A stretch of DNA of 42,306 nucleotides, from NCBI GenBank assembly GCA_014764515.1, contig JACXWD010000025.1, positions 1-42,306 on the forward strand. Reading direction: 5' to 3'. Numbering within the stretch: the stretch's first letter is position 1; every line of letters starts with the position of its first letter. Positions 4,065-37,870 of the stretch are shown in pieces. The notes beneath the pieces were generated by a model. That model saw only the letters and a list, made by a program, of their open reading frames with translations, was not told the origin of the DNA and searched no databases. The stretch is from Candidatus Polarisedimenticola svalbardensis (GTDB taxonomy: Bacteria > Acidobacteriota > Polarisedimenticolia > Polarisedimenticolales > Polarisedimenticolaceae). The translations under genes and the position numbers were made by a program.

Positions 4065-5765
4065 ATGAAGAAAGCGATCACGACTTTCGCAGTGCTGGCA
4101 CTGATCGCGATCCCGCTGTTTGGCGGCGTGGTCATGGCCGTCGAGAAAGACAAGGAACAGATCGAGGAGCTGGAAGCAAGAATCCAGAAACTGGAAATGC
4201 AGAACGCCAAGGACCGTATCCAGTTCACCGGCGACCTGCGGACCACCGCCGACAACATCTCCGCCACACTGGCTCCCCGTGTGGACGGCCTGAAACTTCA
4301 GAAGGGCATGGTGGACACCCTGTTCTACGCCGGAGCGAACATGGGTGCGTTCCCCATGAGTTACGGCGACGTGAGCAATTTCATTGCCGCCAACTACGCC
4401 GATTATCTGTACTTCCAGAACGGTCTGAACTTCGACTGGTTGAAGAACCAGGTCAATGGAATCGCCTCCCAGCCCGGTGGCGACATGATGATCGCCGGCC
4501 TGTTCGGCATGCTCATGGACCCGGCGGCCGGCGTTCCCGGCATCATGGTTCCGGAGCAGGACTACAAGAACGACCTCGTTTACACCACCCGGCTGCGGCT
4601 GAACATGAACGCCAAGGTCAAGGAAAACGTCACGTTCACCGGACGTCTCGGCATGTACAAGAGCTGGGGCGACAGCACCGGCGTGCAGGTGTTCAACGGC
4701 CAGACCAACACCTTCAGCCTGGACGGTAGTGACGTCGGCGTACCCAACAGCGACATCCTAAGGGTGGAGCGGGCCTACTTCGACTGGAAACATCTGGGCG
4801 GTTCCGACTGGTACCTGTCCATCGGCCGTCGGCCGAGCACGTACGGACCGCCCCTGCAGGTCAGCGACAACGAGCTGCGCCAGGGAACACCCAACGGCCA
4901 TGTCGTGAACTTCCAGTTCGACGGCATCACCCTCGGGCGAGCCGTTGGCTGGTCTCCGGGCAGCACGTTCCGGTTCTGCTACGGCGTCGGCTTTGAAGCC
5001 GGCATCGGCAGTGGCGCCGAGCTGAAGGCTCCCGCCGACCGCATGGACGACGTCATACTGGGCGGCATCAACTGGGACATCTACCACACCGACGACATGT
5101 TCATCCAGACAACCATCCTGGGCGCCTGGGACGTCACCGACGGCTTCAACGGCACCCTGGTGCTGCCCACCGACCCGGTGAGCGGCAACCCGATCAACGC
5201 CCCGGTGGTGCTGCGCTACACCCCCAGCGCCCATGTCGGCGATATCTACCTGGCCGACTTCCTGGTGGAACGGAACGAAGGTCCTTTCACCTGGTTCGCC
5301 TCTCTCGGCCTCATGACTTCGGAACCGGATCCGGAAGTCACCACCCCGTTCGGCGGTCTGTTCAGCGACCCGCTGCTGGACACCCCCGAATCCCGTGACG
5401 CCTGGTCTGCCTTTGCAGGTATCCGCTTCAACGCTTCCGACAGCGACATGCTCGGCCTGGAATTCAACCACGGCTCCAAGTACTGGTTCAACTTCACACA
5501 GGCCGCCGACGATCTGGTCGGCTCCAAGCTGGCCACCCGCGGCGACGTCATCGAAGCGTACTGGCTCCACGAGTTCAAGGAAGGGTTCGGCCGGGCACGG
5601 CTGAAATTCCGCCTCGGCGCCATGCATTACAGCTACAACTACACAGGGTCCGGCTGGCAGCTGGGCGCGCCCAAAAAGATCGACGACTTGATGCCGGTCA
5701 TTAGCGCATTCCCGACCTACGGCGATGCCCTGGATATCCGGGCGGCGATTACCGCCAAATTCTGA
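4065..5765 (+). CDS. DUF3373-type outer-membrane beta-barrel protein
   Basis: 566 residues with a Sec signal (1-25, cut after VVMA), then a short coiled coil (about 26-50, with EQIEELEARIQKLEMQNAK in outline). A long series of alternating aromatic/polar strands follows, ending in a terminal phenylalanine (ITAKF), as in Omp85-inserted barrels. Family resemblance is to DUF3373 proteins of uncharacterised outer-membrane barrels. The coiled coil plus barrel design also occurs in OprB/S-layer-like porins. ATG 4065 follows AGGGGAAACTC. Lying between a cytochrome and a molybdoenzyme in one operon, it may admit or export the respiratory substrate or product. Electron conduction across the membrane is possible but unsupported. 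Confidence 0.75.
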   Translation: MKKAITTFAVLALIAIPLFGGVVMAVEKDKEQIEELEARIQKLEMQNAKDRIQFTGDLRTTADNISATLAPRVDGLKLQKGMVDTLFYAGANMGAFPMSYGDVSNFIAANYADYLYFQNGLNFDWLKNQVNGIASQPGGDMMIAGLFGMLMDPAAGVPGIMVPEQDYKNDLVYTTRLRLNMNAKVKENVTFTGRLGMYKSWGDSTGVQVFNGQTNTFSLDGSDVGVPNSDILRVERAYFDWKHLGGSDWYLSIGRRPSTYGPPLQVSDNELRQGTPNGHVVNFQFDGITLGRAVGWSPGSTFRFCYGVGFEAGIGSGAELKAPADRMDDVILGGINWDIYHTDDMFIQTTILGAWDVTDGFNGTLVLPTDPVSGNPINAPVVLRYTPSAHVGDIYLADFLVERNEGPFTWFASLGLMTSEPDPEVTTPFGGLFSDPLLDTPESRDAWSAFAGIRFNASDSDMLGLEFNHGSKYWFNFTQAADDLVGSKLATRGDVIEAYWLHEFKEGFGRARLKFRLGAMHYSYNYTGSGWQLGAPKKIDDLMPVISAFPTYGDALDIRAAITAKF

Positions 5766-30727: not shown

Positions 30728-30769
30728 TTTCGGGGACAGGCACCGAAACCCGGGTTTCGGGGACACCTA
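30727..30769. repeat. REP-like element C
   Basis: Two direct copies of TTTCGGGGACA (30728-30738, 30755-30765) flank a 14-bp perfect palindrome GAAACCCGGGTTTC (30745-30758). The first copy also folds back, GTTTCGG (30727-30733) pairing with CCGAAAC (30743-30749). It fills the gap between converging genes: the G of the upstream TAG is its first base and the downstream gene's stop (30767-30769) abuts its other end. Confidence 0.75.
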
Positions 30770-35586: not shown

Positions 35587-35613
35587 ATGATCGGCCATAA
35601 AGGAGCCGATCAT
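35587..35613 (+). promoter_or_regulatory. Hairpin with the ribosome site in its loop and the start codon in its stem
   Basis: ATGATCGGC (35587-35595) and GCCGATCAT (35605-35613) form a perfect 9-bp stem with loop CATAAAGGA. The loop holds AAAGGA of the ribosome site, and the right arm contains the first two bases of the SerK-like ATG (35612). It lacks a T tract. It looks like a translational switch or protein-binding operator. Confidence 0.65.
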
Positions 35614-36841
35614 GATCCTGAAACCGTTCCGGGGTTGGCGACCTGCCACCGGATTGACATCCAAGATCCCCAGCTACCCGTACGATGTAGTCGGGCCGGC
35701 CGAGGCCCGGGAACTAGCGAACGAGGATCCTTACTCGTTCCTCCATGTTGTTCGACCCGAGGTTGATCTCCCGAAAGGGGTTTCTCCCTATGACGCTCAG
35801 GTGTACGCCCTGGGCGGCTCCAATCTACGGGGAATGCAGGAACGTGGCTGGCTGGTCCAGGATCGATCTCCCTCTTTCTACATCTATCGCATGACCATGG
35901 GAGAGCATGTCCAGACCGGTCTGGTCGGTGCGGCGTCCGTCGCGGAATACGATGCCGGCGAAATCAGGAAGCATGAGCACACCCTGCCGGCGAAGGAGAA
36001 TGACCGGGTCCGTCACATGGAAGCGTTATCGGCCCAGGTCGGCCCGGTGCTGGTGGCCTATCCGGACAGCGAGCCGATAGATCAGGTCGTGGACGAGATC
36101 GTTAACGGTGTGCCATCGGCCGATTTCGTTGCGCCGGACGATATCCGGCATCAGCTCTGGCCGGTGAGCGACGCCGGGCTGGTCCATCGTATCGAGGCGC
36201 TGTATGGACAGGTTCCCTCCAGTTACATCGCCGACGGCCACCACCGCGCCGCTTCCTCGTCCCGGGTTGCGGCGAGTCGCCGCGAAGCAGGTGAGGGCGC
36301 AGGCGCTCCATCCCAGTTCTTCCTTACGATCCAGTTTCCGGCCGGCCGGATGCAGGTCCTGGAGTACAACCGGCTCGTCCGGGATCTGGGGGCCCTAAAC
36401 CCGGAGCAGTTGCGGCAGAAGATCGTGGAAGCCGGATTCAGCCTGGAACGGACGGCAGCCGGCAGGAAGCCTCCCCGCCGCGGCAGTTACGGAATGGTCC
36501 TGGAAGGGGAGTGGTACCTGCTGGAAGCAACGGCAGGGTCCGGTGAAGCCAGTCCGGTGGAACGTCTGGACGTATCGGTCCTGACTGAACGGATTCTCAA
36601 ACCGTTGCTGGGGATCGGAGATCCCCGCTCTGACCCGAGGCTCGAATGTGTCGGCGGCATCCGGGGGGCCGGATACCTGGAAGACCAGGTGAAATCCGGT
36701 CGGTTCGCGGCCGGGTTCGTCCTGTACCCGACCAGCCTGCAGGAGGTCATGGCGGTCGCCGACGCAGGAGAGGTCATGCCGCCCAAGAGCACATGGTTTG
36801 AGCCGAAAGCCCGATCCGGCATGGTGTTCAGGGAGATTTAA
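35612..36841 (+). CDS. DUF1015/SerK-family protein (possible free-serine kinase)
   Basis: 409 residues. Family motifs: RGWRPATG near the N-terminus, SKIPSYPYDVVGPAEAREL, YIYRMTMGEHVQTGLVGAAS, IRKHEHTLPAKENDR (119-133), and SSYIADGHHRAASSSR (203-218) with Asp208/His210/His211. Archaeal relatives are ADP-dependent serine kinases (SerK) with a ParB-like fold; bacterial DUF1015 proteins often sit beside serine biosynthesis genes, but none is here. Enzyme activity is therefore inferred only. ATG 35612 follows AAAGGAG, which lies in a hairpin loop. Confidence 0.8.
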   Translation: MILKPFRGWRPATGLTSKIPSYPYDVVGPAEARELANEDPYSFLHVVRPEVDLPKGVSPYDAQVYALGGSNLRGMQERGWLVQDRSPSFYIYRMTMGEHVQTGLVGAASVAEYDAGEIRKHEHTLPAKENDRVRHMEALSAQVGPVLVAYPDSEPIDQVVDEIVNGVPSADFVAPDDIRHQLWPVSDAGLVHRIEALYGQVPSSYIADGHHRAASSSRVAASRREAGEGAGAPSQFFLTIQFPAGRMQVLEYNRLVRDLGALNPEQLRQKIVEAGFSLERTAAGRKPPRRGSYGMVLEGEWYLLEATAGSGEASPVERLDVSVLTERILKPLLGIGDPRSDPRLECVGGIRGAGYLEDQVKSGRFAAGFVLYPTSLQEVMAVADAGEVMPPKSTWFEPKARSGMVFREI

Positions 36842-37102
36842 ATCGGGGACAGCATAAAAGCGTGGCACCCGTACCGCCTAGCCTGAATTCAGCCTCATAG
36901 CCCTATTCAACATTCTCTTATTATTAACCGTCTTGAAGTGACGATTTGAAAACAGTCCCGCGCAAGCGGGACTCTTTTTTAAATCAGCATTTCAAGACGG
37001 TTGCACAAGGGCGCTGCAATCGAAGAGGAGGTGGGATGCTTAAAGCGGGCAGCTTCATAAGCTGACGTACTTCTGCGATGATCTAAGGTGTCCCCGAAAC
37101 TA
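36842..37102. repeat. Composite non-coding element D/E flanked by inverted TCGGGGACA repeats
   Basis: This 261-bp convergent gap holds no gene. TCGGGGACA (36843-36851) at the left and TGTCCCCGA (37089-37097, part of GGTGTCCCCGAAAC, 37087-37100) at the right are perfect inverted repeats. They match the GGGGACA core of element C. The middle contains a 10-bp palindrome (CTGAATTCAG, 36883-36892), the 73-nt palindrome at 36928-37000 and TTGCA/TGCAA (37001-37019). The left part is AT-richer than the neighbours. The right repeat lies 2 bp from the PilZ stop codon. Confidence 0.6.
36928..37000. repeat. 73-nt long imperfect palindrome with an internal terminator
   Basis: The 34-nt left arm (36928-36961) and 35-nt right arm (36966-37000) pair along almost their whole length around a GCAA (GNRA) loop. 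There are only three mismatched positions, one bulged T and two G-U pairs. The inner stem is AGTCCCGC/GCGGGACT (36954-36961, 36966-36973), followed by C and six T, a textbook intrinsic terminator. The outer stem is CCGTCTTGAA/TTCAAGACGG (36928-36937, 36991-37000). It could be an insertion-like element, a structured RNA, or both. Confidence 0.75.
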
Positions 37103-37870
37103 TCAGAGCAGCAGGTTGCGAAGCTTGTTCCGGATGTTGGCGTGCAGGTTCGGTTTCTGCCTTAGCAGCAATAGTTTGGGCCTGGATAATTGTGGGACCA
37201 GATTCTCGGCCAGTGGAAGAGGGGTCCGGACATGGCAGATTATTTCGAACAATACGTCCGGTCTGTTCTTCCATCGGCCGTTCGCGGCGATCTGTTCAAC
37301 AGTCCGGGACAGCAGGTTGATGTTCTTGAGAAGGGCGAGGAGCTCCGATTCCAGCAGGTGTGGATTCCGCGCCAGCGCATCGAGAACCAGGAGATGACCA
37401 TCGTGGATCAGAATCTCCCGGTCCGGTGGCCTGAGGGATCTAAGAGCCAGAGAACTCCGTTCGGAAACCGGGATCGCTTCCAGCGCATTCCGAATCTCCC
37501 TCTCAGGTGAACCCGGATTGATGCCGGCCAGCAGTCCCGGGGCCTGCCCTTCGATCAGGCGCTGCAGGATCGCTTCCAGCTCCAGGCGTTCGTTTTGGGT
37601 AATGGAGTCGAACTCAAGGGCGAGGGCGGTTCCTTTCCGATCTTTATCTTCGGACACCCGGGCGACCCTGCCGGACAGCTCCAGGTGCAGGTCTCCGGTA
37701 GGGGCATCCAGCCGGAACCGGACCGATTCGTCCGAGGGCCAGGGGATTCCGCCGAGCAACATCACGCCGGTTCGGCTGAGATCGTGGGCCGTGCAGGAAT
37801 AGTCCCGGCCCCGGTAGTGCACCACGGCCGGGATGCCCGCCTTGAACCTTGTTTTTCGTTCGGGCGCCAT
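37103..37870 (-). CDS. PilZ-domain protein with a helical C-terminal region
   Basis: 255 residues. The N-terminal PilZ domain (about 1-105) has its arginine region (ERKTRF, Arg5/Arg8) and HDLSRTG (D30-x-S32-x-x-G35), the residues that bind cyclic di-GMP. The remaining ~150 residues are leucine-rich helices (ALARNPHLLESELLALLKN, PLAENLVPQLS, ANIRNKLRNLLL) resembling HEAT-like repeats; similar arrangements occur in motility or secretion regulators. No motility genes are nearby. It converges on the SerK-like gene across element D/E. Confidence 0.85.
   Translation of the reverse strand: MAPERKTRFKAGIPAVVHYRGRDYSCTAHDLSRTGVMLLGGIPWPSDESVRFRLDAPTGDLHLELSGRVARVSEDKDRKGTALALEFDSITQNERLELEAILQRLIEGQAPGLLAGINPGSPEREIRNALEAIPVSERSSLALRSLRPPDREILIHDGHLLVLDALARNPHLLESELLALLKNINLLSRTVEQIAANGRWKNRPDVLFEIICHVRTPLPLAENLVPQLSRPKLLLLRQKPNLHANIRNKLRNLLL

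Follow-up and report, generated by a model that had tools for sequence, protein, structure and literature searches.

In the window, i.e., the whole 42,306-nucleotide stretch of Candidatus Polarisedimenticola svalbardensis DNA analyzed here, a DUF1015 gene (positions 35612–36841, plus strand) converges on a gene encoding a PilZ-domain protein (37103–37870, minus strand). Between them lies a 255-bp unit (36843–37097, plus strand), delimited by a DNA search, its inverted ends and an alignment of oriented copies; the TAA stop codon of the DUF1015 gene lies 1 nt before it and the TGA stop codon of the PilZ-domain gene 5 nt past it. The left end, TCGGGGACA (36843–36851, plus strand), conforms to GGGGWSAS, a motif described for TIRYT ends (PMC3733652). 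The right end, TGTCCCCGA (37089–37097, minus strand), is the inverted form of TCGGGGACA, and inverted repeats of a 255-bp unit thus bracket a central palindrome, as the initial annotation had proposed. A solitary, one-sided copy of the element end (TTTCGGGGACAGGCACCGAAACCCGGGTTTCGGGGACACC) was also observed at 30728–30767 on the plus strand, directly after a TAG stop codon and with no partner nearby.

The palindrome itself occupies 77 nt (36926–37002, plus strand), with arms at 36926–36952 and 36976–37002 that are 85% complementary and enclose a 23-nt center. It had been described as a 73-nt palindrome at 36928–37000; its existence and position were borne out, and its length was corrected by two bases at each end. 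The predicted fold has an energy of −47.5 kcal/mol, versus a mean of −14.8 (sd 2.7) for shuffled sequences (z −12.25), and none of 200 shuffles was equally stable. An inner terminator followed by six T residues had been reported inside the paired arms and was found there: the stem AGTCCCGC-GCAA-GCGGGACT (36954–36973) precedes a C and six T residues, forming an intrinsic-terminator-like hairpin that spans 36954–36980 on the plus strand, and the minus strand of this inner hairpin carries a weaker GTTTTC tail. The proposed GNRA tetraloop is present as GCAA in the window copy, but was rejected as a conserved feature because the loop differs among copies (ACAA, CCTG, ACCA and GTTG elsewhere). Two conserved shoulders accompany the palindrome in the alignment. 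The left one, TCTTATTATTAACCG, is located at 36916–36930 (plus strand), and the right one, at 37007–37025 (plus strand), lies outside the palindrome and matches AAGGGCGNTNNAATCGAAG with at most one mismatch in 13 copies.

A DNA search identified nine copies of the element in the host genome (G000; 3.69 Mb in 180 contigs), located on contigs C126 (the window), C22, C51 (two copies), C149, C85, C44, C76 and C139. Three of the nine lie at or near contig ends, where repeats are often found. Among 59 further relatives, the same search returned copies in the congener alone, which is the uncultured acidobacterial MAG CALZKF01 (G001) and, like the host genome, a draft MAG; the window is accordingly acidobacterial. 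With a covariance model of the core, the host yielded nine copies and the congener five, including one truncated by a contig end; beyond the genus, the model's single match in the other relatives was marginal (21.9 bits, G039). Related genomes therefore do contain the ends together with the same core, a search that the initial annotation had suggested, and the palindrome is not a single, unconserved occurrence. The unit had no match in phages, plasmids or IMG/VR, and a phage, plasmid or viral origin was rejected on that ground. Matches to a 19-nt shoulder in other phyla scored about 21 bits or less with the covariance model and were judged to be chance, as were shoulder matches at G001:C44, G001:C283, G000:C93 and G002:C128, where the sequence contained no matching palindrome or ends. 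In one congener copy (G001:C235:1-5400, positions 4700-5100), the left half is tandemly duplicated, with the repeated stretch running from close to the inner end as far as the left shoulder.

A full-length element measures about 300 bp and is nested: inside outer inverted ends GGGGACAGGCAC lie inner inverted ends GGGTTTCGGGGACACC, and at the center is a core of about 110 bp that is organized around the palindrome. Oriented copies comprise the outer end TTTCGGGGACAGGCAC..AACC, the inner end CGGGTTTCGGGGACACC, two partly conserved spacers and the core, which is ordered as a shoulder TCTTATTATTA[AG]CCG, the palindrome and the shoulder AAGGGCGCTGCAATCGAAG. Most complete copies include the outer GGGGACAGGCAC ends; the window copy lacks them and may be immobile today. 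Shorter forms are also present in the host genome, namely elements of about 40 bp that consist of outer ends only and elements of about 100 bp with outer and inner ends around a short loop. Counts of GGGGWCAGGCAC reached 41 sites in the host and 86 in the congener, versus one for the control in each, and at most seven in 39 other genomes of the class; strong enrichment of the end motif is thus limited to this genus.

The host genome contains four Y1_Tnp genes, one of which, on contig C54, is flanked by inverted TAGTTTCGGGGACAGGCAC-type ends, as in the element. Its product is 220 aa long, scores 54.6 bits against Y1_Tnp (cut-off 23) and carries the motifs NHVH and YIELNP. Against the equivalog for REP-associated tyrosine transposases (NCBIfam NF047646) it scores 67 bits, under the cut-off of 80. 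Subclass 2.1 TnpAY1 proteins have a C-terminal helix-turn-helix domain; in the C54 protein the C-terminal part is present and unassigned, with no Pfam HTH match even at an E value of 10. No relative of solved structure was found by sequence at an E value of 0.001. The stretches examined around the other three Y1_Tnp genes (C15, C10 and C180) contained no GGGGACA ends. In the congener, a homolog that is 68% identical to the C54 transposase (C55) is flanked by the same inverted ends, and a second, more distant transposase gene (C135) sits between GGGGTCAGGCAC ends, so that each end type has its own transposase. The latter gene, at G001:C135:3150-4350 (273-974), is TIRYT-like and encodes 233 aa with NHVH and YVEMNP. 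The GGGGTCAGGCAC end type also fills congener sites where the host has an A-type element. More distant families of the order (G007 and G009) also contain related genes, flanked there by inverted ends of the GGGGACAG or GGGACAG type. An attC-like integron site was considered and set aside because the ends are shared with a transposase gene.

The ends and the enzyme fit the TIRYT/TIRtron group (GGGGWSAS; subclass 2.1) better than GTAG-tagged REP/RAYT systems. Specifically, the GGGGACAG, GGGGACAC and GGGGTCAG ends conform to GGGGWSAS, the TIR end motif given in the description by Di Nocera et al. (2013, PMC3733652), and a Y1 (HUH) gene lies between the same inverted ends at host C54 and at congener C55 and C135. 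The C54 protein, with its NHVH and YIELNP motifs and its length, resembles subclass 2.1 TnpAY1 proteins, for which the description by Quentin et al. (2018, PMC6006769) gives these two motifs and a length near 238 aa. TIR repeats and TIRtrons are also described in the acidobacterium Koribacter (PMC3733652; PMC6006769). The likeness to TIRYT/TIRtron systems thus extends from the ends to a Y1 transposase of about 220–240 aa between inverted repeats and to the dispersal of ends as singles and dimers. What sets the present dimers apart is that their outer and inner ends are nested and that a conserved, roughly 110-bp core lies between them, containing a terminator-like palindrome; in those two accounts TIRs are described as single, dimeric or grouped, with no mention of such a core.

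Other known repeats share some of these properties. The inverted doublet folds into one hairpin, as in REPs and REPINs, and the element resembles REPIN/RAYT systems in its inverted end doublets with a spacer, hairpin, compensatory changes, extragenic position and link to a Y1 enzyme (Bertels and Rainey 2011, PMC3116915). It differs from them in lacking a GTAG-tagged REP (the GGGGACAG ends have no GT[AG]G tetranucleotide, GTAG or GTGG, at the foot of a REP hairpin), in its far longer spacer (about 220 bp) and in its low copy number of nine. As a short, non-coding unit with inverted ends and several dispersed copies it also qualifies as a MITE, and it shares with NEMIS, ERIC, RUP and Nezha, as these are described in PMC3733652, a gene-adjacent position, strong secondary structure and a length within 70–300 bp; here, however, the enzyme presumed to act as its partner is of the HUH/Y1 type, and target duplication was not established. 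The element is a larger variant of a known bacterial repeat kind, and the most fitting name for it is a non-autonomous TIRtron derivative whose core is structured.

Comparison of orthologous sites revealed that the same places can hold different elements. The window site is shared with congener contig C4 (G001:C4:38100-38900), where the flanks encode the same two gene ends and the core belongs to another subfamily, so that a site can exchange what it holds, through either gene conversion or re-insertion. The C51 (8.7 kb) copy shares its orthologous place with congener contig C2, where the right flanks match. At the congener sites corresponding to the C139 and C76 copies, the flanks are conserved and 58- and 40-bp GGGGTCAGGCAC (T-type) hairpins replace the long element. 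No clean empty site was seen among these, and we infer excision and insertion from replacement, since the orthologous sites bear other short elements. Together, the dispersed copies, the ends shared with a transposase gene and the different elements at orthologous sites lend good support to the idea, raised in the initial annotation, of a non-autonomous mobile element.

Element ends also tend to abut stop codons. In a non-exhaustive survey of selected genome stretches, 49 end matches had enough flank to be scored for a nearby stop codon that terminates a frame (mechanical ORF) of 80 codons or more; such a codon lay within 10 bp in 21 of the 49 and within 20 bp in 28, versus about 0.7 per 10 bp further out, a background that was taken from the same list, in which some matches may not be true elements. 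GTAG REP ends are described as often supplying TAG stop codons (PMC3733652), so that a tendency of this kind is already known for the sister group.

Variation within the core bears on what maintains it. Across 13 copies, 93% of cells pair, and eight pairs are changed on both sides, with 18 such cells versus 5.6 in shuffles (0 of 500); because the shuffles ignore relatedness, these numbers are not probabilities. The C4 core departs from the consensus at seven of 21 stem pairs, and in five of these both bases have changed in a matching way; the C237 core, of yet another sequence, pairs perfectly. The element ends covary as well (own-arm identity 0.79 versus 0.61 when shuffled; 0 of 2000). Of 14 copies, 12 retain the terminator-like core, in some cases followed by fewer T residues; in G001:C4 and C237 that core is replaced. 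Mismatches in the stem comprise 11 G-T/T-G cells versus 10 A-C/C-A cells, a balance that does not point to selection on either strand as RNA and, with so few mismatches, is a weak indication. Taken with the covariation of the arms, it favors a DNA palindrome or template-switch repair over a strand-specific RNA. Template switching is documented as both a maker and a mender of hairpins (PMC8794818) and is able to yield such a pattern, so covariation alone is no proof of function.

If the core were transcribed into a structured small RNA or RNA regulatory element on which selection acts at the RNA level, the mobile ends being a mere vehicle, this would account for a stem kept through paired changes, for a hairpin that ends in a terminator in most copies, and for the conservation of both shoulders, AAGGGCGCTGCAATCGAAG above all, even in the C4 copy with its diverged stem. 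The initial annotation had offered a structured small RNA as one option, and we consider this improbable: the mismatches favor neither strand, no Rfam family reached its gathering score (the matches were all sub-threshold and were judged to be chance), no promoter-like site was found inside the 255-bp unit, the inner part of the stem differs in C4 and C237, and the core was found in one genus only, inside the element. The opposite extreme, a passenger core that has no function for host or element and owes its complementarity to replication template switching alone (quasipalindrome correction), appears possible, if doubtful. It agrees with the documented action of template switching on hairpins, with arms that covary across the family, ends included, and with the lack of strand bias among mismatches. 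Template switching does not explain why the non-palindromic shoulders are also conserved, for which common descent may suffice, and the placement at stop codons points at the least to selection of sites where insertion is tolerated. The convergent genes, with their stops so close by, and a GC hairpin with T6 could further be read as a long host terminator of the intrinsic type, acting in both directions, rather than a mobile element. Similar 250-300-bp units at unrelated loci, ends common to a transposase gene and the presence of other elements in its place at orthologous sites render this very improbable indeed, whereas a host-terminator role is possible as a side function.

The reading that we favor, with a probability of roughly 0.78, is that a non-autonomous, MITE-like element belonging to the TIRYT/TIRtron group has the palindrome as its core; this element would be moved in trans by a TIRYT and would place a terminator-like hairpin at gene 3' ends; we infer both transposition and termination. 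The C54 transposase, whose gene shares the ends of the element, would bind GGGGACAG ends in trans, and would presumably cut and join them as single strands in the manner of IS200/IS605. Insertion would occur next to gene 3' ends, where the hairpin may be tolerated, or even useful, because it would act as a terminator, mainly in the plus orientation and weakly in the other. Replication template switching between the arms, selection for the hairpin, or a combination of the two may keep the arms complementary. A further proposal, which we hold to be rather unlikely, is that the core is a functional module carried by the element, in which the covarying palindrome and conserved shoulders would form a specific structure, either a single-stranded DNA fold to which the Y1 enzyme binds or a 3'-end RNA element, allowing a TIRYT element to land precisely at stop codons and to supply its target gene with a functional 3' end. 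If this were true, insertions would be made harmless.

That the ends abut stop codons so precisely, and that a terminator is carried along, suggests a way in which elements of this sort may spread while doing little damage. The near-equal G-T and A-C counts are also a caution, in that covariation in a palindrome need not imply a functional RNA. TIRYT elements are known mainly by their ends, and in the two accounts cited here that name them, transposition is a proposal. With two transposase/end pairs, elements both short and long, and orthologous sites that hold different elements in two species, this genus is naturally suited to tests of which ends each enzyme recognizes.
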